Source: Acidithiobacillus marinus
Lineage (GTDB): Bacteria; Pseudomonadota; Gammaproteobacteria; Acidithiobacillales; Acidithiobacillaceae
Assembly: GCF_002847505.1 (NCBI RefSeq)
Contig: NZ_MXAV01000040.1
Location: 1-64,000, forward strand
Direction of reading: 5' to 3'
DNA length: 64,000 bases
The translations under genes were made by a program, and so were the position numbers. This document shows positions 48,733 through 64,000 of the stretch, piece after piece. The notes under the pieces are model-generated. The model saw only the letters and a program-made list of their open reading frames with translations, was not told the DNA's origin and did no database searches. Position 1 is the stretch's first letter. Each line of letters starts with the position of its first letter.

Positions 48733-50040
48733 TCAGAGATCCTGAAAAAATACCTGGCTGCGGCGCTGAAAATTATACAGTTGTTGCCGGGGTACCGGCA
48801 GTTCTGCAAGTGTTCCCTGGCGGAATTTACGTTCCAGAAACCAATGGGTTGTTTGCGTGCTCAGGACAAAAATCCGGGATAACTGCCTCTCCCTGGCCCA
48901 GTTCTCACAGAAAGCCAGCAGGCTCTCACCGCGTCCTTGCCGGCGATAGAGGCTGTCTACGGCCAGGCAGGCCACTTCTGCCATGCCCTGTTCTGGGTAG
49001 GGATAAATGGCGGCGCAACCGATAATCTTGCCATCGCGCTCCATGACCACGAAATGATCAGCTTCCATTTCCAGTCGTTCCCGATTGCGTTTGACCAGAA
49101 TCCCTTTTTTTTCCAAAGGGCGAATCAAGGCGAGGATGCCGGGAATATCGGTGACCGTGGCCATGCGCATATGTTCAAAGGAATCCCGGGAAATCAGGGT
49201 GCCCAGCCCGTCACGGGTAAACAGTTCGCGGAGCAGGGCACCATCCACATGCCGGGAAATCAGGTGGACGCGTTCAACGCCCTTGGCACAGGCCGTTGCG
49301 GCACTATGCAGGTGCTCGTGGACCTCTGCAGGTAGGTCCGGGCGCTTTTGCAGAGTCGGAATTTCTGAAGCGGTGAGCTGCCGCAACAGATTGCCTTGTG
49401 CATCGAAAATGCCCTCTGCATCCATATAAAACACCAGCTTCGCAGCTCCCAGCGCAATGGCGGCCGCCACCGCTACTTCCTCGGCACGAATATTGAACAA
49501 GGTACCTGTTGGCGACACGCCAATGGGTGAGAGCAGTACAATTTCGTCGGCAGCGAGATGGCGTTCCATGGCTTCGCTGGCGACCCGCCGGACCTTGCCG
49601 GTACTTTGGTAATCCACCCCGTCCAGAATGCCCAGAGGCTGGGCGATGATGAAGTTGCCGCTGATCACCTGTAGTCCGGCATGAGCCATGGGCGAGCCCA
49701 TCTGCCCTTCGGACAGGGCCGCTTCCACGACCAGGCGGGCACCGCCCACAGCTTCGCGCAGCACCTGCATGGCTTCCGGGCTGGTGATGCGTTTGCCATG
49801 GATGCGTTGAGTTTGTAATCCATGGAGTTGCAGAGCTGCATCGATTTGCGGTCCGGCACCATGCACCAGTACCACATTAATACCCAGACTGTTGAGCAGG
49901 GCAATATCATGGGCGAGCACACGGATGCTGCCATCGGCAATGGCATCGCCGCCAAAATTGATGACGAAGGTCTGCCCCCGGAAGCGGTGGATGTACGGGG
50001 AGGATTCGCGAAAACTGCGCACAAAACTATCGGCCGGCAT
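48733..50040 (-). CDS. argA: Amino-acid N-acetyltransferase (N-acetylglutamate synthase)
   Basis: 435 residues. An N-terminal amino-acid-kinase-like domain ('TFVINFGGDAIADGSIRVLAHDIALLNSLGINVVLVHGAGPQID', 'VLLSPIGVSPTGTLFNIRAEEVAVAAAIALGAAKLVFY') is the arginine-sensing part; the C-terminal GNAT domain from ~285 has 'AEVACLAVDSLYRRQGRGESLLAFCENWARE' (acetyl-CoA loop RRQGRG). It makes the first step of arginine synthesis. Convergent with the NYN gene, with 10 bases between stops. Confidence 0.95.
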   Translation of the reverse strand: MPADSFVRSFRESSPYIHRFRGQTFVINFGGDAIADGSIRVLAHDIALLNSLGINVVLVHGAGPQIDAALQLHGLQTQRIHGKRITSPEAMQVLREAVGGARLVVEAALSEGQMGSPMAHAGLQVISGNFIIAQPLGILDGVDYQSTGKVRRVASEAMERHLAADEIVLLSPIGVSPTGTLFNIRAEEVAVAAAIALGAAKLVFYMDAEGIFDAQGNLLRQLTASEIPTLQKRPDLPAEVHEHLHSAATACAKGVERVHLISRHVDGALLRELFTRDGLGTLISRDSFEHMRMATVTDIPGILALIRPLEKKGILVKRNRERLEMEADHFVVMERDGKIIGCAAIYPYPEQGMAEVACLAVDSLYRRQGRGESLLAFCENWARERQLSRIFVLSTQTTHWFLERKFRQGTLAELPVPRQQLYNFQRRSQVFFQDL

Positions 50041-50108
50041 GCGTTTATCCTGCCAGTTCTAGGGCAAATGGGGCGTGCGGCGCAATCAATACGGTTTGTC
50101 CGGGCGCT

Positions 50109-50420
50109 TTACTGGGTATTGAGGGAGATGGTTCGGCGCGGAGCTTTGGGCTGATTCAGCGCAGCAAATTCTTCGGGCGTATAGGCTTTTACGGCCAAAG
50201 CATGCATCTGGTCACGAACCGACTCGGTGGCGGCATTGACCAGTCGATGCCGGGCCAGGGGTGCCATCCCTGCAAACTGGGCGCAGACAATGCGGAGCTC
50301 ATAGTGTCCACCGCCATCGGACTGCTCATGTTCACTATGGGCTTCCGTACGATCCTTCACTTCCATAAATTCGGGATGGAGGGCATCTTCCAGTAATTGT
50401 TCCAGTTGTTGCTTGTTCAT
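50109..50420 (-). CDS. BolA-family protein
   Basis: 103 residues. 'LEQLLEDALHPEFMEVKDRTEAHSEH', 'GGHYELRIVCAQFAGMAPLARHRLVNAATESV' and 'MHALAVKAYTPEEFAALN' are BolA: the FxG and the conserved 'RHR.V' and 'IHAL'-like (MHAL) helices are there. BolA proteins bind glutaredoxin-held Fe-S clusters and may bind DNA. The YciI gene overlaps by 4 nt upstream. Confidence 0.92.
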   Translation of the reverse strand: MNKQQLEQLLEDALHPEFMEVKDRTEAHSEHEQSDGGGHYELRIVCAQFAGMAPLARHRLVNAATESVRDQMHALAVKAYTPEEFAALNQPKAPRRTISLNTQ

Positions 50421-50719
50421 GGCAAAAATACTCCTTTATAGGGGCGCACGCTGACATCGGCATAGACCCCGGCGCTGAGATAGGGTTCGGCAGCCGCCCA
50501 GGCGTGGGCTTCGTCCAGGGAATCAAAGCGGGCAATAATCAGGCTACCGGTGAACCCCGCTTCACCGGGTTCTTCCGTATCCAGGGCAGGGAAGGGGCCT
50601 GCGGTCAGTAGTCGTCCTTCGGATTGCAGCTGATGCAGGCGTGCCAGGTGATCGGCGCGGGCCGTCTGTCGTTTGCTCAGGGAATGGGGGTTGTCGGTAC
50701 CAATGATGCAGTAATACAT
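50417..50719 (-). CDS. yciI: YciI-family protein
   Basis: 100 residues. 'MYYCIIGTDNPHSLSKRQTARADHLARLHQLQSEGRLLTAGPFPALD' and 'GSLIIARFDSLDEAHAWAAAEPYLSAGVYADVSVRPYKGVF' give the ferredoxin-like fold with conserved His24 and Asp near the cleft. The function of the family is not settled. Lies with yciB and bolA as is common in gammaproteobacteria; stop overlaps the bolA start. Confidence 0.93.
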   Translation of the reverse strand: MYYCIIGTDNPHSLSKRQTARADHLARLHQLQSEGRLLTAGPFPALDTEEPGEAGFTGSLIIARFDSLDEAHAWAAAEPYLSAGVYADVSVRPYKGVFLP

Positions 50720-50763
50720 AGTGTTGTCCTGTCAATAAAGAGAGTCTGGCCTCTGTACAGTAG

Positions 50764-51315
50764 TCATGAGTCACCGTCTTTCACTTCCTGGGGTAGCGCC
50801 CGAGAAATGAGCACCGCCTGGAACAGTACAAAAATGATGGTAATGCCCAGCATACCGAATAGCTTGTAATCCACCCAGATGCCCGTGGAAAAACTATAGG
50901 CTACCACCAGATTCAGTATCGCACTGAAAAGAAAAAAAATGATCCAGTATGCGTTGAGACGGCGCCAGAATGACTGGGGCAGGGTTGCGGGCAATTGCCC
51001 ACCCATGAGGCGTTCCAGTAAAGGCTTTTCTCGCCAGTGGGTGAAAAGCAGTACTCCCGCAAAAAGCAGATAGAGAATGCTGGGCTTTACCTTGATAAAG
51101 GTGTCATTATGAAAATAAAGCGTCAGTCCACCAAAAACAAGGATCAATAGGGTGGATACCCAGGTCATGGTCTCGATGTGCCCGCGACGCCACCACTGCC
51201 AGGCCATGAGGATAATGGCGGCCACAATCAGCACTTCCGTGGCCGTGTAAATGCCATGAATCTTGTAAGCAATAAAAAACAGGATAATGGGTAGAAAGTC
51301 GGTAAACAGTTTCAT
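50764..51315 (-). CDS. yciB: Inner-membrane-spanning protein YciB (septation protein A family)
   Basis: 183 residues with five membrane helices. The signature opens the protein: 'MKLFTDFLPIILFFIAYKIHGIYTATEVLIVAA'; then 'HNDTFIKVKPSILYLLFAGVLLF' and 'WRRLNAYWIIFFLFSAILNLVVAYSFSTGIWVDYKLFG'. Linked to cell-envelope maintenance and division. yciI starts 44 bases downstream on the same strand. Confidence 0.95.
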   Translation of the reverse strand: MKLFTDFLPIILFFIAYKIHGIYTATEVLIVAAIILMAWQWWRRGHIETMTWVSTLLILVFGGLTLYFHNDTFIKVKPSILYLLFAGVLLFTHWREKPLLERLMGGQLPATLPQSFWRRLNAYWIIFFLFSAILNLVVAYSFSTGIWVDYKLFGMLGITIIFVLFQAVLISRALPQEVKDGDS

Positions 51316-51379
51316 GGCAGGACGCAGTTAAGATAAAGTAGTTCAGAACTATCTAATCACAGAAAGGAGTTTAAGGACA

Positions 51380-52243
51380 GTGGAACGTCAGCATTTACTG
51401 GAAGGTTTGGCTGCGCTGCTGGGAGATAGCAGTAGTCATCCGCTGCCCGATTTTGCTCAGGTGAAGGCGGCGCGTTGGCGCCATTTGCCGCTGGGCGGGC
51501 GGCTGGAAGGCGTGACCCGGGTGGATTTGCCGGAAATGGACGAGCTTCTGGGTATCGATGAAACCAAGGCGGCCCTGGATCTGAATACACGTCAGTTTGT
51601 GGCGGGATATCCTGCCAATGATGCCCTGCTCTGGGGCGGCAGAGGGACGGGAAAATCTTCTCTGGTCAAAGCCCTGCTGCAGCGTTACGCCGAGCAGGGG
51701 CTGCGCCTCATTGAAATGGATGCCGATGGCATTCTCGATTTACCGGAGATTTTGGCGGCATTGCAGGCCGCTGATCCGGAACAACGCTATCACTTTGCCC
51801 TGTTTTGTGATGATTTGTCTTTCAGTTCCGACGATCCAGGTTACAAGGCGCTCAAATCCCTTCTGGATGGCGGTGTCGAGGCGCGTCCTGATAATGTCCT
51901 CCTCTATGCTACCAGTAACCGCCGTCATCTCATGCCCCGGCACTTTTCCGACAATGAAGAATATCATCGCCACGGGGAAGAGATTATTGCCGGGGAAACC
52001 GCCGAGGAAAAAATCAGCCTGTCCGAGCGCTTTGGGCTATGGTTGGGTTTTTATCCCTTCGATCAGGCCATGTATCTGGATATTTGTGCGATCCATCTGC
52101 GCCGCCTGGAGGTGACTGCAGATGCCGGAGAGTGGCGGGAAGAGGCCTTGCGCTGGGCTCTGCAGAGAGGATCACGCAGTGGTCGGGTGGCACGGCAGTT
52201 TGCCCGGCACTGGGCCGGGTCGCGGGCATTGGCGGCACAGTAA
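51380..52243 (+). CDS. DUF815 family AAA-type ATPase
   Basis: 287 residues, GTG start at 51380. Walker A 'WGGRGTGKSSLVKALL' near residue 90, Walker B 'FALFCDDLSFSSDD', sensor region 'NVLLYATSNRRHLMPRHFSDNEEYHRHGEEI', and 'LSERFGLWLGFYPFDQAMYLDI'. These are the DUF815 hallmarks; the role of the family is unknown. Divergent from yciB. Confidence 0.9.
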   Translation: MERQHLLEGLAALLGDSSSHPLPDFAQVKAARWRHLPLGGRLEGVTRVDLPEMDELLGIDETKAALDLNTRQFVAGYPANDALLWGGRGTGKSSLVKALLQRYAEQGLRLIEMDADGILDLPEILAALQAADPEQRYHFALFCDDLSFSSDDPGYKALKSLLDGGVEARPDNVLLYATSNRRHLMPRHFSDNEEYHRHGEEIIAGETAEEKISLSERFGLWLGFYPFDQAMYLDICAIHLRRLEVTADAGEWREEALRWALQRGSRSGRVARQFARHWAGSRALAAQ

Positions 52244-52279
52244 GCATCAGAAACGCTGACGGCCTCGACGCGCTGCTGT

Positions 52280-53077
52280 TCAGGCTTGGGGTTTGTTGAT
52301 TTCCTGGCTGATAATGTGGAGCATTTGCGCATGTACGCGGAGATTCCCGGCGATAATGTTGCCGCTGTCCAGATACCCTTGTTCACCGGTGAAGTCAGTG
52401 GCAATGCCACCCGCTTCCTGTACCAGTAATGCTCCCGCTGCCAGATCCCAGGGCTTGAGATTGAACTCCCAGAATCCGTCATAGCGTCCGGCCGCGACAT
52501 AAGCCAGATCTAACGCAGCGGAACCAGGGCGGCGGATACCTGCAGTCTTGAGCATGAAGGCCTTGAATGTCGCCATATAGGTGTCGAGGTAGGAAAAATC
52601 CCGGAACGGAAAACCAGTCCCGAGCAGAGCACCCTCCAGATCCTTGCGCTGGGCAATACGCAGGCGGCGGTCATTGAGGTGGGCGCCGGCACCGCGAGAG
52701 GCCGTGAACAGTTCATCATGAATGGGATTGTACACGACCGCATGTTCCAGACGATCAAAGTGCTTGATACCAATGGATACGCAAAGTTGCGGCATGCCGT
52801 GAATGAAATTGGTGGTACCGTCGAGGGGGTCGATGATCCACTCGAATTCCTTGTCGGCGATGCGACTGCCTTCCTCGGCCAAAATGCCATGCTCGGGATA
52901 GGCGCGACGGATGATGTCGACGATGGCCGCTTCGGCGCGCTGGTCCACGTCGGTCACAAAATCGTTATGGGCCTTGGGGGTGATGGTGATTTCATTGACC
53001 CGGGCAAAGCTGCGGTTGATGATGTCGCCGGCTTTACGGGCGGCACGAATGGCGGTTACAAGAATGGGATGCTGCAT
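52280..53077 (-). CDS. suhB: Inositol-1-monophosphatase SuhB
   Basis: 265 residues. Metal motifs: 'AEEGSR' and 'WIIDPLDGTTNFIHGMP' (DPLDGTxNF), then 'RRPGSAALDLAYVAAGRYDGFWEFNLKPWDLAAGALLVQEAGG' (WDxAAG). SuhB also joins rRNA antitermination complexes with Nus factors. The ATG at 53077 fits the family start and follows AGGG; the frame continues open for 109 codons upstream, but that part is only the palindromic element and intergenic sequence. Confidence 0.95.
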   Translation of the reverse strand: MQHPILVTAIRAARKAGDIINRSFARVNEITITPKAHNDFVTDVDQRAEAAIVDIIRRAYPEHGILAEEGSRIADKEFEWIIDPLDGTTNFIHGMPQLCVSIGIKHFDRLEHAVVYNPIHDELFTASRGAGAHLNDRRLRIAQRKDLEGALLGTGFPFRDFSYLDTYMATFKAFMLKTAGIRRPGSAALDLAYVAAGRYDGFWEFNLKPWDLAAGALLVQEAGGIATDFTGEQGYLDSGNIIAGNLRVHAQMLHIISQEINKPQA

Positions 53078-53164
53078 GGGAACCCTATGGGAAAACAGAA
53101 TGGATGTTTGCCAGTATAAAGGAGAACGACAACGACCGCACGATTGCCCTTGAAAGTGGTGTCT

Positions 53165-53355
53165 GGAAGCGGTGGCTGGGAGAGAGGCTTTCAGCGACTT
53201 TGGCCCGCGCCGTTGTTGTTCTTGGCAAAATCCTGCGCCCGGCAGGCGAACTGTCTGAACCCGAAGGGTGAGTTTTCGCCTGCCAGCAGGATGAGCCCCA
53301 GAACAACAGGCAAGGGCCGTTGGAGCTGAAAGCCTCTCTCCCAGCCACCGCTTCC
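53165..53355. repeat. Palindromic element, copy A
   Basis: 191 bp between suhB and trmJ. The outermost 31 bases (53165-53195) are a perfect inverted repeat of 53325-53355. Inside are nested stems: 53214-53222/53300-53308, 53230-53236/53286-53292 and 53241-53250/53275-53284, closing on CCC-GAA-GGG. The inner ~128 bases recur at 61819-61947; the outer arms do not. It could be a structured RNA or a mobile palindrome. Translations of it on either strand are not genes. Confidence 0.88.
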
Positions 53356-53407
53356 AAATCGTTAGGTAAAGTAATGCGACGACCAAGATGATCAGGAGTA
53401 ACACATT

Positions 53408-54175
53408 GTGAGTGCAGAGATTTTACAGGGTTTGCGGGTGGTGCTGGTGGAAACCAGCCATCCGGGGAATATCGGTGCCACGGCCCGCGCCATGAAAGTC
53501 ATGGGCTTACAACATCTGGTGCTGGTAAACCCGCGCTACTTTCCCCATCCCGAAGCCACTGCCCTGGCTTCGGGAGCGGAGGATATTCTCGACCGGGCCC
53601 AGGTCACGACGGATCTGGCCACTGCCTTGCAGGGGTGTCACAGGGTCTATGGCACCAGTGCCCGGGACCGGCGTATTCAGTGGCCGGTACTGGATGCCCG
53701 GGAGGCGGCGCTGGACGTGGTGCAGGAGTTGACTGGCGGCCAATGTGCCCTGGTTTTTGGCCGGGAGCGTACCGGACTGAGTAATGAAGAATTGGATTAC
53801 TGTCAGGTGCTGGTCAATATTCCTACTGCCGAATTGTATCATTCATTGAATTTAGGTCAGGCCGTTCAGGTGCTGGCTTACGAGTTACACATGGCGACGC
53901 TGGCCAAGCCTGCAGACCTGCCTGCCGAAGATTCTGCTGCGCTGCTGGAGGCGCCTGCCCCCAAGGAAGACATGGAGGGTTTTTATCAGCATCTGGAGCA
54001 AGTGCTGCGGCAAAGCGGTTTTCTCCAGGAGCTGCGTGCCACTCGCATGATGCGTCGCTTGCGGCGACTGTATGACCGGGCGCGACCCAGCGTCAATGAA
54101 GTCAATATCCTGCGCGGTATTCTTACGGAAATACAACGTTGGGCGACGAATAGTAGACAAAAAGGGTCGGGATAG
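53408..54175 (+). CDS. trmJ: tRNA (cytidine/uridine-2'-O-)-methyltransferase TrmJ
   Basis: 255 residues, SPOUT class. 'LRVVLVETSHPGNIGATARAMKVMGL', 'SGAEDIL', 'CALVFGRERTGLSNEELDYCQ', 'IPTAELYHSLNLGQAVQVLAYEL' form the trefoil-knot SAM site; a C-terminal helical extension from ~170 dimerises. It methylates position 32 of tRNAs. trmJ directly upstream of cysE and isc genes is a common gammaproteobacterial order. Confidence 0.94.
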   Translation: MSAEILQGLRVVLVETSHPGNIGATARAMKVMGLQHLVLVNPRYFPHPEATALASGAEDILDRAQVTTDLATALQGCHRVYGTSARDRRIQWPVLDAREAALDVVQELTGGQCALVFGRERTGLSNEELDYCQVLVNIPTAELYHSLNLGQAVQVLAYELHMATLAKPADLPAEDSAALLEAPAPKEDMEGFYQHLEQVLRQSGFLQELRATRMMRRLRRLYDRARPSVNEVNILRGILTEIQRWATNSRQKGSG

Positions 54176-54224
54176 TCTTTAATGCGGGCTGAGAAAAGTC
54201 GGCGAAACACAAGGGGGCAAAGGA

Positions 54225-54995
54225 ATGACTGGTCATTGGCGGGCTGACCTGGATGCTGTTTTTGCCCGGGATCCTGCCGCCCGCAACCGACTTGAGGTAT
54301 TGCTGACTTACCCCGGAGTCCATGCCCTGTTCTTGCATCGTGTGGCGCATAGCCTGTGGAAACGTCGCTGGCGCTTGCTGGCCCGGAGTATTGCCGCCTT
54401 TTCACGATTCTGGACTGGGATTGAAATTCATCCCGGGGCCTGTATTGGCCGACGTTTTTTTATCGATCACGGGATGGGTGTGGTGATTGGTGAAACGGCG
54501 GAAATTGGCGATGATTGTACGCTTTATCATGGGGTTACCCTGGGAGGCACTTCCTGGCAGCCAGGCAAGCGCCACCCCACGCTGGGAAACGGGGTGATTG
54601 TGGGGGCCGGTGCCAAAGTGCTGGGGCCTATAATCGTGGGGGATCAGGTCCGAATCGGTTCCAATGCGGTGGTGGTCAAAGCGGTTCCTGCTGGAGCCAC
54701 GGTAGTGGGTATTCCCGGGCGTGTGGTGAACAAGGCCGAGCAACATCCCGATAGTTTTGAGGCCTATGGCCTGACCGGGCAGATGCCGGATCCGGTGGCC
54801 AGGGCCATCGAATGCATGCTCGAACACATGCATCGTCAGGATGCTGAATTGGCCCAGCTCAGAGAGGGCTTGCAGCAGTTACAGCCCAAGCAGAATTTGC
54901 TGCCGGTCGAGGAAATTGTTTGTTCTTTAGAACCGGATTCAGGTGATTCGGAGCAGGCGGCTTCGGGGCCAGGAACTTCCTCTGACAATACTTGA
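54225..54995 (+). CDS. cysE: Serine O-acetyltransferase CysE
   Basis: 256 residues. '[36 protein letters not shown]' is the N-terminal SAT domain; the left-handed beta-helix follows with '[45 protein letters not shown]'. It supplies O-acetylserine for cysteine, the sulphur source of IscS. The C-terminal 60 residues are an extension with a coiled-coil part. Its stop lies inside the iscR promoter, so the two units are tightly packed. Confidence 0.95.
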
Positions 54996-55019
54996 CTAAT
55001 TTAGTAGAGATAGTAGGAT
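54988..55019 (+). promoter_or_regulatory. iscR promoter with IscR-type operator
   Basis: TTGACT (54992-54997) and TAGGAT (55014-55019) are 16 bases apart. 54988-55009 (ATACTTGACTAATTTAGTAGAG) is 22 bases that match the type-1 IscR site consensus at most fixed positions: the central AATTT and flanking TAG and GAC parts. So IscR with its cluster would cover the -35 and repress the operon, as in E. coli. Confidence 0.6.
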
Positions 55020-55040
55020 GTGTCACAGAGGTATTTCGAT

Positions 55041-55532
55041 ATGAAATTGACGACAAAGGGCCGCTATGCCGTAACCGCTATGCTGGACTTGGCTCTACAT
55101 CAGCAGGGCGGGGTGGTGACGGTGGCAGATGTTTCCCGGCGTCAGCAGATTTCAGTGGCTTATCTGGAACAGTTGTTTGGACGTATGCGGCGTGTGGGGC
55201 TAATTGAAAGTGTGCGCGGCCCTGGTGGTGGTTACCGGCTGGCGCTCCCGGATTCGCAGATTTCCCTCACTCGTATTGTCGAGGCGGTCAACGAATCCAT
55301 CAGCACTACCCAGTGTGGTGGCGAACCGCAGAATTGCTGCAAGGGTGACGGGCAGCAGTGCCTGACCCATGATCTTTGGGAAGAGTTGGGTGACCTGATA
55401 GCCGGATTTCTCGGGAGTATCACCCTGGGTGATCTGGTTGCGCGGCACTTGAAGAAGGAATCAGCGCAGGGTGCGCTGGTTCATATGCAAAATCGCCATA
55501 CGTTGCGTACGGCAACGCATGATACCGCTTGA
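55041..55532 (+). CDS. iscR: Fe-S cluster-sensing regulator IscR
   Basis: 163 residues. Rrf2-family winged helix: 'MKLTTKGRYAVTAMLDLALH', 'QQISVAYLEQLFGRMRRVGLIESVRGPGGGYRL'. The cluster-binding cysteines are in 'TTQCGGEPQNCCKGDGQQCLTHDLW' (three of the Cys, with the His of THDLW). The ATG at 55041 is preceded by AGAGG; a start seven codons earlier is in frame but is not family-like. Represses the operon when holo. Confidence 0.95.
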   Translation: MKLTTKGRYAVTAMLDLALHQQGGVVTVADVSRRQQISVAYLEQLFGRMRRVGLIESVRGPGGGYRLALPDSQISLTRIVEAVNESISTTQCGGEPQNCCKGDGQQCLTHDLWEELGDLIAGFLGSITLGDLVARHLKKESAQGALVHMQNRHTLRTATHDTA

Positions 55533-55565
55533 AACCACTTGATACCGTGAGGTGAGGTGCAGGAT

Positions 55566-56831
55566 ATGAATTCATCGCAAATTATCGAACTGGACAGCAA
55601 GAAGCCCTTGCTTATTGATCCGGATCGTCCCATTTATCTGGACTACCAAGCAACCACGCCGGTGGATCCGCAGGTACTGGAGCAGATGCTGCCTTACCTG
55701 ACCCATGATTTCGGGAATGCGGCGAGTCGTTCTCATGCCTACGGCTGGACTGCGGAAAAAGCCGTGGATAAAGCGCGGCAGCAGGTCGCCGACGCCATTC
55801 ATGCGGACCCCCGTGAGGTTGTCTGGACCTCGGGAGCCACTGAGTCCACTAACCTGGCTTTAAAGGGTGCTGCCCATTTTTACTCTGGCAAGGGCAAACA
55901 CATCATTACCTTGCGGACCGAGCACAAGGCGACTCTGGATACCTGTCGGCAGTTGGAACGGGAAGGTTTTGAAGTGACCTATCTCGAAGTTCAGGAAGAC
56001 GGTCTCGTTGACCTGAAAGCTTTTGAAGCTGCCATTCGTCCGGATACCATCGTGGCTTCGGTACTCTTCGTGAATAACGAGATTGGAGTCATCCAGCCCA
56101 TGGCCGAAATCGGCCGGATATTGCGGGCACACAAGGTGCTGTTTCATGTGGATGCAGCCCAGGCGCTGGGCAAGGTTCCTGTAGATGTGGAAGCCATTCA
56201 GGCGGACATGATGAGTTTGTCTGGTCACAAGATGTATGGTCCCAAAGGGATTGGCGCTTTATACGTGCGGCGTAAGCCTCGGGTACGGGTGGAAGCCCAG
56301 GTGCATGGTGGTGGTCATGAACGGGGCATGCGTTCGGGCACGTTGCCCACCCACCAGATTGTCGGGATGGGTGCAGCGGCGGAATTGGCGGTGCAGCTCA
56401 TGGACAGCGACGCCCAACGAATCGGCAAGCTGCGTGATCGTCTGCTCAAGGGCATTCAGGAGCGCGTTGAGGAAACCTACATCAATGGCAGCATGGAGCA
56501 TCGGGTACCCCATAACCTGAATATCAGTTTTGCCTTTGTTGAAGGGGAATCCCTGATCATGGCCCTCAAGGAAATCGCAGTTTCCAGTGGTTCAGCCTGT
56601 ACTTCGGCCAGTCTGGAGCCGTCTTATGTGCTCCGGGCCCTGGGTAAATCCGATGAGTTGGCCCACAGTTCCATTCGTTTCGGTATCGGTCGCTTTACGA
56701 CAGAAGCCGAAATTGATGCCACCATTGAGTTGATTGCCGGCAAGGTAGGAAAGTTGCGGGAATTGTCCCCGCTCTGGGAAATGCATCAGGAAGGCATTGA
56801 TCTTAACAGTATTCAGTGGGCCGCACATTAA
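55566..56831 (+). CDS. iscS: Cysteine desulfurase IscS
   Basis: 421 residues. PLP enzyme that takes sulphur from cysteine. Seen: '[23 protein letters not shown]', '[16 protein letters not shown]', the PLP lysine in '[21 protein letters not shown]', and the mobile-loop catalytic cysteine in '[19 protein letters not shown]'. The N-terminal ~18 residues are longer than in E. coli IscS. Supplies IscU, MnmA (downstream) and others. Confidence 0.97.
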
Positions 56832-56855
56832 GGCCCTCAAGCAAGGAGAACAGTC

Positions 56856-57287
56856 ATGGCATACAGCGAAAAAGTGATCGACCATTATGAAAATCCCCGT
56901 AATGTCGGGGCGATGAACAAGGAAGACGGTGGTGTAGGTACCGGCATGGTAGGCGCTCCTGCCTGCGGTGATGTGATGCGTCTGCAGATCAAGGTAAACG
57001 CCCAGGGCATTATCGAAGATGCCAAATTCAAAACCTATGGTTGTGGTTCAGCCATTGCCTCCAGCTCTCTGGTGACGGAATGGGTGAAGGGAAAAACTCT
57101 GGATGAGGCGATGACTATCAAAAACAGTCACATTGCCGAAGAGCTGGAGCTGCCTCCGGTCAAGATTCACTGTTCCGTACTGGCCGAAGATGCCATCAAA
57201 GCGGCGGTAGAAGATTATCGCAGCAAGCAGGGCGCTGCCCAGTCCAGTCAGGGTGGTGAAGCAGTGTCCGCTCAGGTGGCGCACTGA
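56856..57287 (+). CDS. iscU: Fe-S scaffold protein IscU
   Basis: 143 residues. The three ligand cysteines are in '[11 protein letters not shown]', '[13 protein letters not shown]' and '[13 protein letters not shown]', and the HscA-recognised LPPVK sits before the third ('[10 protein letters not shown]'). Builds 2Fe-2S clusters on IscS. The C-terminal ~15 residues are a variable tail. Starts 24 bases after iscS. Confidence 0.97.
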
Positions 57288-57297
57288 GGACGTCGCT

Positions 57298-57621
57298 ATG
57301 GCTTTGACTTTGTCAGAAAGTGCTGTTCAGCAGGTACGCAAGAGCATAGCCAAGCGGGGAAAGGGCTTGGGCATTCGTATCGGGGTAAAAACCAGCGGAT
57401 GTTCTGGTTTGTCCTATGTCATGGAGTTTGTGGATGCCCCCCACCCTGAGGACGTGGTTTTTCCACATGACGATGTCAGCCTCTTTGTGGACCCCAAGAG
57501 CCTGATTTATCTGGACGGAACCCAGCTTGATTTTACCCGCGAAGGACTCAATGAGGGATTTCGTTTCAATAATCCCAATGTCAAGGATTCCTGCGGCTGC
57601 GGCGAAAGTTTCACCACCTGA
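57298..57621 (+). CDS. iscA: Iron-sulphur cluster assembly protein IscA
   Basis: 107 residues, A-type carrier. Cysteines in '[15 protein letters not shown]' (Cys ~35) and 'SCGCGESF' (Cys ~99 and 101). The ATG at 57298 comes after 'GAGGACGTCGCT'; the frame is open upstream inside iscU, which is shadow. The hscB ATG overlaps its stop by one base. Confidence 0.97.
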
Positions 57622-58238
57622 TGCCGAATTCCTGTATTCAGTGCGGGGCGGAACTCAATTTCCCTCCCGCATTTTGTCATGCTTGCGGCACTGTCCAGCC
57701 TTTTCGTCCGGAGTTATCCCTCTTTGAGGTGGTTGGCCTCCCAGCAAGCTTTGCCTTGGATCCGCAGACCCTGCGGCAACGGGTGCTGGATTTGCAGAAA
57801 ATGCTCCATCCCGATCGTTTTGCCCATGCCGATGGGACCGCGCGACGATATTCGCTGGAATGGAGTACGCGGCTCAACGAGGCGCTGGCGATACTGCGTG
57901 ATCCACTGAAACGCGCTGATTATCTTCTTCAGGCTCAGGGTGTAGATGCCCTGGGGGAGAATGTCAAGGTTGCTGATCCGGCATTGTTGATGTCTCAGAT
58001 GATGTATCGGGAGCGTCTGGAAGACCTGGTGGCGGCCAAGGACCAGCAGGGGCTGGAGGATCTGCGCACCGAGGTGGATGCTGCGGCTAATGCGGCCGTT
58101 GAAAAGCTTGGCATTCTGCTGAAAACCCTGCCCTGTTCCCAGAGCGATGCTGCCGCAGCGCTGCTGCGTGAACTGCAGTTTCTGGACAAGCTTCAGGATG
58201 AAATCGACCGCAGTGAAGAATCCTCGCAAAACCTCTGA
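57621..58238 (+). CDS. hscB: Co-chaperone HscB with N-terminal zinc ribbon
   Basis: 205 residues. Residues ~30-100 are a J-domain (HPD in 'LQKMLHPDRFAH'), ~120-200 the C-terminal three-helix bundle that holds IscU. The N-terminal ~30 residues contain two CxxC motifs ('CIQCGAELNFPPAFCHACG'), a zinc-ribbon extension present in mitochondrial HSC20 but absent from E. coli HscB. It delivers IscU to HscA and stimulates its ATPase. Confidence 0.94.
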   Translation: MPNSCIQCGAELNFPPAFCHACGTVQPFRPELSLFEVVGLPASFALDPQTLRQRVLDLQKMLHPDRFAHADGTARRYSLEWSTRLNEALAILRDPLKRADYLLQAQGVDALGENVKVADPALLMSQMMYRERLEDLVAAKDQQGLEDLRTEVDAAANAAVEKLGILLKTLPCSQSDAAAALLRELQFLDKLQDEIDRSEESSQNL

Positions 58239-58278
58239 TACCAGAGGGATATCCCATTAATAAACAGGGTGTTATGGT

Positions 58279-60144
58279 ATGGCTTTAATGCAAATTGCAG
58301 AACCGGGAATGACCGCAGATCCGCACCAACGGCGTTTGGCCATTGGTATTGATCTGGGGACGACCCATTCATTGGTGGCTTCCGTGCTGTCGGCGGTGCC
58401 CACCGTCATGGGTGATCATGATGGAAAGTACTTACTGCCTTCGGTGGTGCGTTATCTGGAAAACGACGAGATTTCTGTAGGTTATCCAGCGCTGGCTGCT
58501 GCCGGTCAGGATCCTCATAACACCATTGCATCGGTCAAGCGCTTCATGGGCCGTGGTCATGGAGATGTCCAGAAGCTGGCGGGACATTTGCCCTATGATC
58601 TGGTTCCCGGTGAGGGCATGCTGCGTTTGCGGACCCGAGCGGGCGAAAAATCGCCAGTAGAAGTCTCTGCCGAAATTCTCAGGGTGCTCAAAGCCCTGGC
58701 AGTGGAAACCCTGGGCGGTGAACCGGAAGGGGCAGTGATTACCGTGCCCGCCTACTTTGATGAAGCGCAGCGGCAAGCGACCAAGGATGCGGCCCGTCTG
58801 GCTGGCCTGAAGGTCCTGCGCCTGCTGGCTGAGCCGACGGCGGCGGCGGTAGCCTATGGGCTGGATAAAAAAAGTGAGGGCCTTTTCGCCATTTATGATT
58901 TGGGTGGTGGCACTTTTGACATTTCCATTTTGCGCTTGCAGGCGGGGGTGTTTGAAGTGCTGGCCACGGCCGGAGATACCGCATTGGGTGGGGATGATAT
59001 GGATCACGCCATCGCTGAGTGGCTGATTGCCGAGTCCGACACGCGCCAAGAGGATCCCGTCTGGCGGCGTCAGCTCTTGCAGCAAGCCCGCCAGGCCAAG
59101 GAGGCGCTGACAGCGCAGGAACAGGTACAGATCAAACTGGAGCCTGAAGCGGGCAACTCCCGCGAACTGACTTTGTCGCGCAAACAGTTTGAAGAGCTGA
59201 TCCAGCCGGTGCTGCAACGTACTTTGCCAGCCTGTCGCCGCGCCCTGCGCGATGCGGGTCTTAAAGTGAGTGATTTGGATGGTGTGGTGCTGGTGGGTGG
59301 GGCTACCCGGGTACCCGCCTTGCGTCGGGTTGTCGCTGAGTTTTTTCAACAGCCGCCGCTGACGGATATTGATCCTGACCAGGTCGTTGCCCTGGGTGCT
59401 GCTATCCAGGCAGATGCGCTGGTGGGCAACCAGCGCGAAGACCTGTTGTTGATGGATGTCCTGCCCCTTTCGTTAGGCCTGGAAACCATGGGCGGTCTGG
59501 TGGAAAAAATCATTCCGCGCAATACGCCCATCCCTGCTGCCAAAGCGCAGGAGTTCACGACCTTCAAGGACGGGCAGACGGCCATGAGTATCCATGTGCT
59601 CCAAGGCGAGCGGGATCTGGTGCAGGACTGTCGTTCCCTGGCACGCTTCAGTTTACGTGGGATTCCTCCCCTGGTGGCCGGAGCAGCTCGTATTCGCGTG
59701 ACTTTTCAGGTGGACGCCGATGGCTTGTTGACCGTAACAGCGGAAGAGGGGAGCACAGGGGTGCGCTCGGAAGTGATCGTCAAGCCCAGTTTTGGTCTGG
59801 ATGATGCGGAAATTGCCCGCATGCTCCAGGAATCTTTTGCGCATGGTGCCGAAGATGTGGCCCAGCGGCGCCTCTCGGAAGCGCGGGTGGAGGGAGAACG
59901 GGTGCTTGAGGCCTTGCAGGGGGCATTGCAAAGCGACGCAGCTTTGCTGGATAGCACAGAACAAGCCCGCCTGGATGCCGCACGTCAGGATCTGGAGCAA
60001 TTTCTTGCCGGCAGCGATGCAGATGCCATTCAAAAAGCGGCCGAGGCGGTTGAAGCGGCAGCAGAACCTCTGGTACAACGGCGCATGGATAGTGCCTTGC
60101 AGCGCGCTATTGCTGGCCGTTCCATAGATGATCTGGGAGATTAA
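58279..60144 (+). CDS. hscA: Fe-S assembly chaperone HscA
   Basis: 621 residues. Hsp70 family: '[17 protein letters not shown]', '[17 protein letters not shown]', '[14 protein letters not shown]', '[17 protein letters not shown]'; the linker and substrate domain follow from ~390 ('[24 protein letters not shown]'). Specific to the IscU LPPVK motif. hscB precedes by 40 bases; fdx starts directly after its stop. Confidence 0.97.
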
Positions 60145-60483
60145 ATGACGAAAATACAAGTCCTACCCAACGCCGAATTGTGTCCCGAAGGGGCGGAATT
60201 CGAGGCAGAGCCGGGGGAAAGCATCATTGCTGCTGCCATGCGCCATCATATTGCCATTGAGCATGCCTGTGAGATGTCCTGTGCCTGTACCACCTGCCAT
60301 GTCATTTTGCGGGAAGGTTTTGACAGCCTCGAAGCCGCAGAAGAAAAAGAAGAAGACCTCTTGGACAAGGCCTGGGGACTGGAGCCGACTTCGCGCCTGA
60401 GTTGTCAGGCCAAAGTGGCGGATACGCCCCTGGTCATTGAAATACCCAAATATACCATCAATCTGGAAAAGGAGCGGCACTGA
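60145..60483 (+). CDS. fdx: [2Fe-2S] ferredoxin of the ISC system
   Basis: 112 residues. Adrenodoxin type: 'HACEMSCACTTCHVILREGFDSL' carries three cluster cysteines (C-x5-C-x2-C pattern), and the fourth is in 'RLSCQAKV'. Gives electrons for cluster assembly on IscU. Its stop overlaps the iscX start by one base. Confidence 0.97.
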   Translation: MTKIQVLPNAELCPEGAEFEAEPGESIIAAAMRHHIAIEHACEMSCACTTCHVILREGFDSLEAAEEKEEDLLDKAWGLEPTSRLSCQAKVADTPLVIEIPKYTINLEKERH

Positions 60484-60677
60484 TGCTGTGGAGCGATACC
60501 ATGGATATTGTTTTCGCGCTGGATGAGGCGCATCCCGACGCGGATGTGCAACTGTTGCGTTTCACAGATTTGCATCGCTGGATTGTGGAACTTCCAGATT
60601 TTGATGATGATCCCGAAAAGTCCAGTGAGGGTATTCTCGAAGCCATCCAGATGGCTTGGCTGGCTGAGAAGGACTGA
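60483..60677 (+). CDS. iscX: Fe-S assembly protein IscX
   Basis: 64 residues, acidic. 'WSDTMDIVFALDEAHPDADVQLLRFTDLHRWIVELPDFDDDPEKSSEGILEAIQMAW' is IscX throughout. Binds iron and IscS, modulating activity like CyaY does. mnmA follows 12 bases downstream. Confidence 0.96.
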   Translation: MLWSDTMDIVFALDEAHPDADVQLLRFTDLHRWIVELPDFDDDPEKSSEGILEAIQMAWLAEKD

Positions 60678-60689
60678 GGGCTACTGAAG

Positions 60690-61757
60690 ATGGCGGCACC
60701 CAAGGCGCTGGTGGCCCTTTCCGGTGGGGTGGATTCTGCGGTGGCCGCCATTCTCATGCAGGAACAAGGCTACGACCTGGTGGGTGTGACCATGCGTCTC
60801 TGGCCGAAAAGTCGCTGTTGTGACGAAAAAGATATTGAAGATGCGGCGGAAGTCTGTGCCCGTTTGCAGATTCCCTATCAGGTGCTGGATTATCGGGAGG
60901 CTTTCCGCCAGCAGGTCGTGGATGTGTTTGTCGCCGAATACCAGGCGGGACGTACGCCCAATCCCTGTGCGCGCTGCAATCAGTTTCTGAAGTTTGATGC
61001 TTTACTGGAAGAAGGCAAAAAACTGGGCGCGAGCATTCTGGCCACGGGCCACTATGCCCGACTTCTGGAAACGGAATCCGGCACCGCCCTGTTGCGCGGT
61101 GAAGATGCTGGCAAAGACCAGTCCTATTTTCTGTTTGCTCTGGGTGCCGGACTGCTGCCGCAGTTGCGTTTTCCGGTGGGTGCCATGCACAAGGATGCGG
61201 TCCGCGCCCTGGCCCGCAAACATGGCTTGCCGGTGGCGGCAAAACAGGATTCCCAGGATATATGCTTTGTGCCGGATGGTGACTACCGCCGTTTTCTCAC
61301 CGATTATGCCGGTCTGGATCTGGAGCAGGAAGGGGAGATGCTGGACAGCAGTGGTCAGGTTGTCGGTCATCATGCCGGCGTCCTCAATTTTACCGTGGGA
61401 CAACGCAAGGGATTGGGCGGAGGCAGTGGTCAGCCGCGCTATGTCCTGGCCTTGGACCCCGTCCGCAATCAGGTTCGGGTAGGCAGCGAAAAGGAGCTGT
61501 ACCAGACCCGGGCTTATTTGCAGGAATGTAACTGGCTGATGCCTGTGGATTCTTCCCAGGAATACTCGGTGACGGTGAAATTGCGCTATCGTTCCCGACC
61601 TGAACCGGGAGTTTTGTGTCTGAAAGACCATGGCCGTGCCGAAATCCATTTTGCCGAGGGGCAACGGGCTATCACTCCCGGACAAGCAGCTGTCTGTTAT
61701 GTAGGGGAGCGTTTGCTCGGCGGGGGCTGGATCAGTATCGCTGAAAATCCAGCGTAA
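60690..61757 (+). CDS. mnmA: tRNA-specific 2-thiouridylase MnmA
   Basis: 355 residues. PP-loop 'LVALSGGVDSAVAAIL'; catalytic cysteines in 'NPCARCNQFLKFD' and 'KQDSQDICFVPDGDY'; 'GKDQSYFLFAL' and the beta-barrel C-terminus. It adds sulphur to U34 of tRNAs for Lys, Glu and Gln, with sulphur from IscS. Placing it in the isc operon fits that supply chain. Confidence 0.96.
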   Translation: MAAPKALVALSGGVDSAVAAILMQEQGYDLVGVTMRLWPKSRCCDEKDIEDAAEVCARLQIPYQVLDYREAFRQQVVDVFVAEYQAGRTPNPCARCNQFLKFDALLEEGKKLGASILATGHYARLLETESGTALLRGEDAGKDQSYFLFALGAGLLPQLRFPVGAMHKDAVRALARKHGLPVAAKQDSQDICFVPDGDYRRFLTDYAGLDLEQEGEMLDSSGQVVGHHAGVLNFTVGQRKGLGGGSGQPRYVLALDPVRNQVRVGSEKELYQTRAYLQECNWLMPVDSSQEYSVTVKLRYRSRPEPGVLCLKDHGRAEIHFAEGQRAITPGQAAVCYVGERLLGGGWISIAENPA

Positions 61758-61791
61758 ATGGCAAGTAAAGTAAAAATCCTCTCATACTAAA

Positions 61792-61974
61792 GCGTCAGGG
61801 AGGGAGGTGATTTTTTGCGACTTTGGCCCGAGCCGTGGTTGTTCTTGGCAAAATCCCGCGCTCGGCAGGCGAACTGTCTGAACCCGAAGGGTGAGTTTTC
61901 GCCTGCCAGCGGGATGAGCCCCAGAACAACAGGCAAGGGACGTTGGAGCAAAAAATCACCTCCCTCCCCGACGC
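61792..61974. repeat. Palindromic element, copy B
   Basis: 183 bp in the 400-base gap between mnmA and rhlE. Outer arms 61792-61818 and 61948-61974 are inverted repeats with one mismatch (61797 against 61969) and have no similarity to the arms of copy A. The inner ~128 bases differ from copy A at about six positions, two of which are the two sides of one base pair (C61857-G61911 in place of T53234-A53288). The rest of the gap is the rhlE leader with no obvious gene. Confidence 0.88.
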
Positions 61975-62158
61975 TGTTGGGGTCGTTCGTTCCTGGACAA
62001 GGCTGTTCCTCGTATTTATGTGGATATTCTGATAAAGTCCATCCGCCGTCATGATACAGTCTGTGTGATGGTCGTTGCATTGGTCCCCACCTTGATGAAG
62101 CGTCTGCCCAGACTGGCGTCCTTGCGACGAGGCCGGTGTTTTCGGAGTAATTCCCTAT

Positions 62159-63436
62159 ATGTCTTCTGATTTTGCTTCACTCGGACTTTCCGAGCCCATT
62201 TGGCGCGCCGCTGCAGAACGCGGTTATACCACGCCTACCCCCATTCAGGCGCAAGCTATTCCTGCGGTATTGTCCGGCGTCGATTTACTGGCCGGCGCCC
62301 AAACTGGCACCGGTAAAACGGCAGCATTTGCCATGCCGATTCTCCATCAACTCGCCGCCACGGCGGCAACGGCCTTTCATGGTCCTTCCAGTGTGCGGGC
62401 ATTGATTCTCGTGCCGACGCGTGAACTGGCCGCCCAGGTGGAAGAAAGCGTACAACTCTACGGAAAAAACTTATCCCTGCGCTCCCTGATCCTCATTGGG
62501 GGTGTCAAAATCAACCCACAAATGCAGAAGTTGCGGCGCAGCGTGGATGTACTGGTGGCTACTCCCGGGCGTTTACTGGATCATATCCAGCAGCGCAGTG
62601 TGGACTTGTCCCATGTAGAGATTCTGGTGCTCGATGAAGCCGATCGCATGCTGGATATGGGTTTTATTCGCGATATTCGGCGGATTCTCGCCATACTCCC
62701 CAAAAAGCGGCAGAATCTGTTGTTTTCAGCGACTTTTTCGCCGGAAATCCGGACTCTGGCTGATGGCTTGCTGCATAATCCCGTCAGTGTCGAAGTAGCC
62801 AGCCGTAATGCCACAGCAGATACGGTAGCCCAACGTTTTTATGCAGTTGATCAAGAGCGCAAACGCGAGCTGCTGACCCACCTTATTCGCGAAGACCAAT
62901 GGCATCAGGTGTTGGTGTTTACCCGAACCAAGCATGGCGCGGATCGACTGGCCAAGCATCTTTCCCAGGACGGCATGCAGGCCATGGCGATTCATGGCAA
63001 CAAAAGTCAGGGCGCGCGGACACGAGCTCTGGCAGAATTCAAGGAAGGCAAGGTACGGGTACTGGTGGCCACCGATATCGCCGCACGCGGCATAGATATC
63101 AGTGAACTCCCCCATGTGGTGAATTTCGAGCTGCCGCATGTGCCGGAAGATTATGTGCATCGTATCGGTCGCACCGGTAGAGCCGGAAATAACGGGCAGG
63201 CGGTATCGCTGGTCAGTGTGGATGAACGCAAGCAGCTCGCTGATGTCGAGAAACTGCTGAAACGGTCGTTTGCCAAGGAAATCGTTGCGGGATTTGAACC
63301 CCGACAACATTTTCCCAGTCATCAGCCAGCAGCCCAGGCGCGCCGTCCATCGACTCCCGGAGCACAGCGCAGAGCGCCAAACCGTCCTGCAGCTGGCGGA
63401 AATCGCTTTCGGGAGCGGCCCAAAACTTCTGCATAG
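62159..63436 (+). CDS. rhlE: DEAD-box RNA helicase RhlE
   Basis: 425 residues. Motifs: '[31 protein letters not shown]' (Q), '[12 protein letters not shown]' (I), '[11 protein letters not shown]' (Ia), 'TPGRLLDH', '[14 protein letters not shown]' (DEAD), 'LLFSATFS' (SAT), '[11 protein letters not shown]', '[13 protein letters not shown]'. The ~45-residue basic Arg-rich tail is typical of RhlE, acting in ribosome assembly and mRNA turnover. Begins 120 bases after the palindromic region. Confidence 0.94.
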
Positions 63437-63531
63437 CTTTGGACGATTAACCCCGTGTTTGGCCTTGGCAGACCCCCCGCTGATCGGTCACAATGCTTTA
63501 CTAAAGAGCGTCAATCCGAGATTGGTCAGAT

Positions 63532-64000
63532 ATGGAAGAAGAAAAGGTCTCCTCAGCACGCATCTTAATTGTTGAGGATGAAGAAGGTATCCAAGAGCTT
63601 CTGCGCGTGGCGCTGCAACGCCACGGTTTTGACGTGTGTTGTGAAGGTAGCGTGGAAGCTGCGGAATCCGTCCTGAAAAGCTGGGCGCCGCAAATGATCA
63701 TTCTTGATTGGATGTTACCGGGAGAAAACGGGGTAGCCTGGTGCAGGCTTTTGCGACGGCGCGAGGAAACCCAGAAGTTGCCCATCATCCTCCTGACTGC
63801 ACGGGGTGAAGAGGGTGATCGGGTACATGGACTCGAATCCGGCGCCGACGATTATCTGGCCAAACCGTTCTCTCCCCGCGAACTGGTAGCGCGCGTCAAT
63901 GCACTGTTACGGCGCAGCTATGGGAATCATTCCGCAGGTGTGGTCAAGCTGGGTGAATTGCAGGTCGACCTGCGCGCCCATCGTGTGCATGTGCAAGATG
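63532..64000 (+). CDS. phoB: PhoB-like two-component response regulator, cut by window edge
   Basis: 156 codons before the window ends. Receiver domain: 'RILIVEDEEGIQELLRVALQRHGFDV', the phospho-acceptor Asp in 'MIILDWMLPGENGVAW', 'PIILLTARGEEGDRVHGLESGADDYLAKPFSPRELVARV'. The DNA-binding winged helix begins at 'VVKLGELQVDLRAHRV' and is truncated. The receiver and spacing resemble PhoB of phosphate starvation; the symbol is by resemblance. Confidence 0.85.
   Translation, partial: MEEEKVSSARILIVEDEEGIQELLRVALQRHGFDVCCEGSVEAAESVLKSWAPQMIILDWMLPGENGVAWCRLLRRREETQKLPIILLTARGEEGDRVHGLESGADDYLAKPFSPRELVARVNALLRRSYGNHSAGVVKLGELQVDLRAHRVHVQD

Follow-up and report, generated by a model that had tools for sequence, protein, structure and literature searches.

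How the core of a palindromic element can remain almost unchanged from one copy to another, while the arms enclosing it differ between copies and yet remain complementary to each other, is the question raised by a locus in Acidithiobacillus marinus. The window analyzed here is the whole 64,000-nucleotide stretch at the start of contig NZ_MXAV01000040.1, and it carries two copies of the element, A (about 53162-53358) and B (about 61791-61975). Copy A, read on the forward strand, consists of a left arm forming the terminal inverted repeat (53162..53193), in which the CCT end of the family is replaced by TCT, a conserved 133-nt core which is itself an imperfect hairpin (53194..53326), and a right arm complementary to the left one (53327..53358). 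The corresponding parts of copy B, also on the forward strand, are located at 61791..61816 (left arm), 61817..61949 (core), and 61950..61975 (right arm). The inverted repeat of A extends over 48 nt with 85% matching (53164-53211 with 53309-53356), the outer 31-32 bp or so being perfect, and that of B over 28 nt with 96% (61791-61818 with 61948-61975); the middle common to both copies is 143 nt long and 93% identical, at a spacing of 8623. The predicted folds of A (-144 kcal/mol, z -14.2) and B (-118 kcal/mol, z -10.3) were equaled by none of 200 shuffled sequences in either case. The inverted repeats, the shared middle, and the folding in comparison with shuffled sequences all bear out the description of A given in the initial annotation, namely self-complementary arms around a core recurring about 8.6 kb away. 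Copy A lies between two divergent genes, a suhB-like inositol monophosphatase gene (PF00459; 52280..53077, reverse strand) and a trmJ-like SpoU methylase gene (PF00588; 53408..54175, forward strand), and copy B lies between an upstream mnmA-like tRNA thiouridylase gene (PF03054; 60690..61757) and a downstream DEAD-box helicase gene (PF00270; 62159..63436), both on the forward strand. No Rfam family matched A or B at E values up to 10 when positions 50000-64000 were searched.

The search for the core in the genome itself and in its relatives, which the initial annotation had proposed, yielded a family. The genome of the window carries eight full copies, two of which are A and B, and one fragment; the core was found in nine of the 57 genomes searched, seven belonging to the genus of the window (its own included) and two to a sister genus. 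The numbers of copies per genome in the relatives are lower bounds (15-20 were scored in each). The 137 profile matches were reduced to 124 non-redundant near-full copies, 121 of which were used for the arm statistics. The matches listed in a scan of GTDB contigs include A. sulfurivorans, A. concretivorus, A. sp. HP-2, an A. ferrivorans MAG, A. montserratensis, A. sulfuriphilus, and one proteobacterial MAG; none of the stretches from other taxa (12 of the 115, among the matches listed) fits the core profile. Plasmid and phage collections gave only weak matches (E 0.6), none of which extended over more than 18% of the query, and a pattern scan of IMG/VR gave two matches, neither of which fits the core profile. 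Most of the genomes compared are draft assemblies, some contigs of which end at elements, and one (G004) is a single contig. Among the papers listed for Acidithiobacillus in a limited collection, no title or abstract opening describing the element was found. Copies A and B are members of a mobile, MITE-like palindrome family present in or next to Acidithiobacillus, the architecture of which consists of terminal inverted repeats of about 34 bp around a 133-nt folded core.

Insertion was studied by comparing three stretches of the single-contig genome with G001, G003, G005, and G011, which gave six element sites. At site R3s2, the empty allele CCCAATGAAGCGG corresponds to the occupied arrangement CCCA-ATGAA-element-ATGAA-GCGG, with a clean target duplication ATGAA, and site R3s1 shows an equally clean duplication, ATAAA. 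The data are consistent with a TTTAT duplication at R1s1, where one end of the element is eroded, and with an imperfect duplication (TTTCA/TTTAT) at R1s2, while R2s1 and R2s2 gave no readable duplication, so that the target duplication is clean at two of the six sites. Three features of a MITE are present: terminal inverted repeats, target-site duplication with empty sites, and a small size without any transposase gene. The fact that the empty alleles compared do not contain the arms of the element indicates that it arrives together with its arms. The orthologous suhB-trmJ gaps, the comparison of which had also been proposed, were compared with the locus of A: in 13 of the 16 same-genus genomes, both sides match on a single contig with just 30-74 bp between them, as compared with at least 245 bp in the window. 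The element is present in G009, where it retains the CCT...AGG ends, the region is split over two contigs in G010, and no match was obtained in G016.

The arms of a copy match one another better, on average, than they match those of other copies. The mean complementarity between the arms of a copy is 0.84 (121 copies); among the eight copies in the genome of the window, it amounts to 0.86 versus 0.35 between arms of different copies, and in every genome the own arms match better on average, the weakest contrast being that observed in G020 (0.74 versus 0.69). Further copies resemble A and B in this respect, with arms complementary beyond chance. The claim that the arms of the copies are unrelated holds for A and B, which look private, and does not wholly hold for the family: the arms in relatives have a loose terminal consensus in common, and recent copies share the terminal motif CCTRAAAACGGC at both ends and even have near-identical whole arms, whereas older copies have private arms that still pair. 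These recent copies in relatives match each other and not A or B. Since recent copies share the motif and whole arms, A and B most likely came to look private with age, by drift. The contrast initially drawn with MITEs, based on a constant interior and variable repeats, is not supported, recent copies having constant terminal repeats which become private only later on. Many arms terminate in an A-tract/T-tract, and the asymmetry at the inner junction between arm and core has been perfected in L104 and L131.

How the arms change was studied on 50 hand-picked pairs of orthologous copies, 45 with both flanks matching and five with only one. The pairs left out were one with a partly deleted, flipped core (L001/L038), those marked as odd, several in which a single flank matched, those that repeated others of their group, and L103/L146 and L112/L146, in both of which the core has the same orientation. 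In the 49 usable pairs, which share loci and are not independent, 1180 arm base pairs were unchanged; where both sides had changed, 80 base pairs were still paired and only one was unpaired, and the 64 one-sided changes comprised 26 involving G-U and 38 mismatches. Matching indels are present in both arms in L024/L092 (3 bp) and L030/L071 (4-5 bp). At orthologous sites, the mean identity (48 pairs) was 0.931 in the near flanks, 0.949 in the core, and 0.863 in the arms. The large excess of doubly changed positions that remain paired shows that the pairing is actively maintained while the arm sequence changes; these paired substitutions and the indels in both arms are the traces expected of template switching.

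The core behaves differently from the arms. Relative to the flanks, it has the same orientation in 25 of the 50 ortholog pairs and is inverted in the other 25, and 20 of the 31 locus groups hold both orientations. Flips occur even where the near flanks are 0.98-0.99 identical (L107/L125, L031/L062, and L106/L114), and the ortholog of copy A in G009 has an inverted core, part of which has been lost. Same and flipped orientations are equally frequent in all gene contexts (14 and 14 pairs between convergent genes, five and five between divergent genes, and five and five between tandem genes, in 48 pairs). The single-contig genome, the one finished genome with the element in the comparison, also shows flips with respect to the others; inversion of the spacer was thus found, subject to the quality of the assemblies. 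Two core subfamilies, which can be distinguished by ten diagnostic columns, replace each other at orthologous loci (L089 versus L106, L114, and L140; L030 versus L071). L103 and L115 have chimeric cores, within which the breakpoint lies, and the arms at L103 are identical to those at L112. The subfamily replacement, the chimeric cores, and these identical arms all point to conversion between loci that is limited to the core. When the orientation of the core itself is followed, the core pairs at A1 columns 49-179, 74-143, and 103-118 vary via G-U and seldom via A-C. Since G-U states outnumber A-C states when the core is read in its own frame, selection on a folded single strand may act in the core.

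Some copies are shortened or interrupted. In shortened elements (L272:568-680 and G003:C112:3186-3298), the terminal repeats are 96 bp apart instead of 182 bp. At L276, L274, part of L273 (near 782), and L303, only the arms are present, in the form of hairpins of about 28 bp with A- and T-tracts, which resemble compact bidirectional terminators and appear to have arisen when the sequence between direct repeats in the two arms was deleted. In G004, a fragment of an IS110-family transposase gene (PF02371) lies inside the core at CCTTA/TTAGAAC (L271:789-1848), and a short insert that shares its ends but lacks the gene occupies this core position at another locus (L310, in G001), which suggests that both inserts resulted from site-specific insertion into the core. 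The copy at L023, at a contig end in G011, has arms that do not match and ends 25 nt past the core; it is a probable assembly chimera.

Taken together, these data are probably best explained by MITE-like insertion followed by arm-to-arm copying of DNA, which would keep the arms paired while they drift and would also invert the core. A copy would insert whole, arms and core together, with a duplication of about 5 bp of an A/T-rich target, as seen cleanly at two sites, two others being in keeping with it, and the arms of a newborn copy would be ordinary terminal inverted repeats, as those shared by recent copies indicate. From then on, each copy would be a very small palindrome subject to gene conversion, in which one arm may serve as the template for the other when the DNA is replicated or repaired, via template switching or inverted-repeat recombination. 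Since one arm would template the other, mutations would be either erased or transferred to the partner arm, and the arms would remain complementary while drifting freely, which is the pattern observed. The same exchange might invert the 133-bp core, as the differences in orientation suggest. The core, which changes more slowly and, judging from the chimeric cores, is exchanged between loci, is probably held back by constraint and/or homogenization by ectopic conversion. The outcome would be a conserved core between private, self-complementary arms. As a rough estimate rather than a measurement, an arm mismatch of 4.7% would mean that copying is about 40 times as frequent as mutation per base, and the even split between orientations at about 5% divergence would require flips to be, again roughly, no less than some tens of times as frequent as mutation, so that a single process could produce both. 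Similar traces would be expected from recombination between the inverted repeats or from the action of an enzyme on the element. Several points weigh against the copying interpretation. Most of the genomes are drafts, so that some of the orientations could be assembly errors; the 133-bp spacer is far longer than the 2-5 bp of substitutions carried by inverted spacers in yeast; and ordinary homologous recombination would be inefficient between arms of about 30 bp. In addition, the preponderance of elements between convergent genes could be due to selection for termination, although an insertion preference would explain it as well, and the excess of G-U over A-C states in the core suggests that selection on a folded strand may act there.

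The initial annotation had suggested that selection might act on the stem, and a functional RNA or a bidirectional terminator, the arms of which are kept paired by selection for a hairpin in the transcript, would indeed account for the strong covariation (38 of the 68 predicted pairs over the whole hairpin show pair-keeping double changes in 43 copies) and for the A-tract/T-tract at many arm ends. It would also fit the location of the element, which lies between convergent genes in 56 of the 109 classified copies versus 10 of 48 baseline gaps (p=4e-4, orthologs being counted repeatedly), with the facing gene 3' ends at a median of 45 nt from the core edge. In this count of 124 copies, nine had too little flank and six had no clear neighbor, and mechanical ORFs of at least 100 aa over 15 copies were ignored. 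If RNA pairing were under selection, however, G-U states should outnumber A-C states, and this was not the case in the arms: the 131 mismatches in 2767 arm columns comprise 38 of the GU type, 38 of the AC type, and 55 others, and in tandem loci oriented by the neighboring genes, 11 GU and 11 AC were counted. In the RNase P RNA used as a control (24 distinct sequences from 25 genomes of the group, with the Rfam structure), pairs having a Watson-Crick commonest state showed 50 GU, 6 AC, and 13 others, and single-side changes between sequences numbered 1098 with G-U and 374 without. Transversions accounted for 33 of the 80 doubly changed pairs in the arms, 574 of 2179 in RNase P, and 292 of the 764 substitutions in the flanks. 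Arm pairing is equally good in all gene contexts (0.949 convergent, 0.941 tandem, 0.951 divergent), copy A itself being located between divergent genes. The absence of any G-U preference and the fact that the pairing is independent of the context make it unlikely that RNA selection keeps the arms paired. The flipping of the core in every gene context, the multi-base indels matched in both arms, and the absence of hits to described Rfam families in the elements (E values up to 10) also go against a functional RNA or terminator, and we regard this explanation as unlikely. It is somewhat less likely still that the flips are largely assembly artefacts and that only the private arms are real. Several contigs do break off within an element or beside one (L012, L023, L027, and L133), and one of these copies is the apparent chimera mentioned above, but flips were also seen against the single-contig genome. 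The word lengths commonly used by assemblers exceed the arms of about 34 bp, so that the path from flank to arm to core should be unambiguous in most assemblies.

The possibility that a dedicated enzyme, either a transposase or an invertase, acts on the core to invert it and to resolve a cruciform, arm copying being a by-product, would be in line with the mixed orientations found even between close genomes, with the conservation and strand-biased wobble of the core, and with the IS110-family fragment in the L271 core and the L310 insert, which has its ends and its core position in common with that fragment. The fragment looks, however, like an insertion into the core. When an autonomous partner was sought by its terminal pattern in G003, G004, G005, G011, and G017, with a single end mismatch tolerated, no longer element bearing a transposase was found: the search gave pairs of element size, short versions with the 96-bp spacing, ends lacking a partner, and a single longer copy (L271), and L277-L279 are single or partial ends with no visible transposon. 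The flip rate needed is, by rough inference, modest, and an enzyme is therefore unnecessary; we consider this explanation improbable. An invertible-hairpin system, in which a trans-acting enzyme would recognize the folded core and open the cruciform, each cycle inverting the core and re-templating one arm, seems equally improbable; if it exists, every locus would be a self-repairing palindrome with a sequence of its own. The least plausible of the explanations weighed is that the core is a mobile unit homing, in either orientation, into palindromes already present, as the initial annotation had also envisaged. Both orientations do occur at symmetric sites, and core subfamilies swap at loci with conserved arms. 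In addition, when host hairpins were sought at the insertion points (five sites, nine alleles), the R2s1 empty allele in G005 (L294) was found to place the insertion in a loop closed by a host stem of 8 bp, as do 3% of random positions. In the G003 allele of the same site, however, this stem has 4 bp only, an 8-bp hairpin lies merely beside the insertion point at R3s1 (14% of random positions), and at the remaining sites tested the stem at the insertion point measures 3-5 bp, none of these cases being rare for the stretch. The arms come with the insertion, being absent from the empty alleles, the arms-only hairpins (L276, L274, and L303) look like deletions between direct repeats, and the chimeric cores show partial tracts, so that homing is already disfavored and appears very improbable. 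The loop insertion at R2s1 might reflect a target preference, six sites being too few to judge.

REP/REPIN elements, which are associated with a RAYT transposase, are characterized by a GTAG/CGTC tag and a linked RAYT gene. Several systems resemble the present family in part. Like the prokaryotic MITEs described in a review (PMC10969869), in the main text of which Acidithiobacillus is mentioned zero times, the element is about 190-200 bp long, has no transposase gene, and is dispersed, with terminal inverted repeats, target-site duplication, and empty sites; it differs from them in that its arms become locus-private by paired change, its middle is conserved, and no autonomous partner was found in five genomes. 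According to a yeast study, template switching between inverted repeats results in arm homogenization and in a spacer inversion that is reversible, the inverted spacers carrying just 2-5 bp of substitutions in single genes (PMC8604942). Arm homogenization and spacer inversion are common to both systems, paired indels belong to the traces in the element and not to those reported from yeast, and here the spacer is far longer, the core of 133 bp flipping across a dispersed family of bacterial elements. Template switching has also been proposed to create and maintain RNA hairpins (PMC8794818), giving compensatory double changes from one DNA event as in the element; those hairpins belong to RNA genes, on which selection acts too, whereas the arm pairing of the element shows no sign of RNA selection. 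In the human Y palindromes, arm-to-arm conversion keeps the arms alike with occasional inversion, three inversions versus 56 conversions in 83 phased chromosomes and conversion on the kilobase scale being reported (PMC3723533), whereas the arms of the element are about 34 bp long and its orientations are close to an even split. Arm-to-arm copying, the best reading of these data, is a mechanism already known, which would operate here on a 133-bp spacer in the many copies of a dispersed family.

Double compensatory changes are usually taken as strong evidence for a functional RNA stem. Since the covariation in the arms is dense and yet neither the wobble test nor the gene-context test gives a sign of RNA selection, RNA discovery based on covariance could score this family as a new RNA. 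Because the palindrome occurs at many loci in several species, the family provides natural replicates, and the rates of arm copying and spacer inversion in bacteria could be measured from them with the orientation of the core and the sequence of the arms as read-outs.
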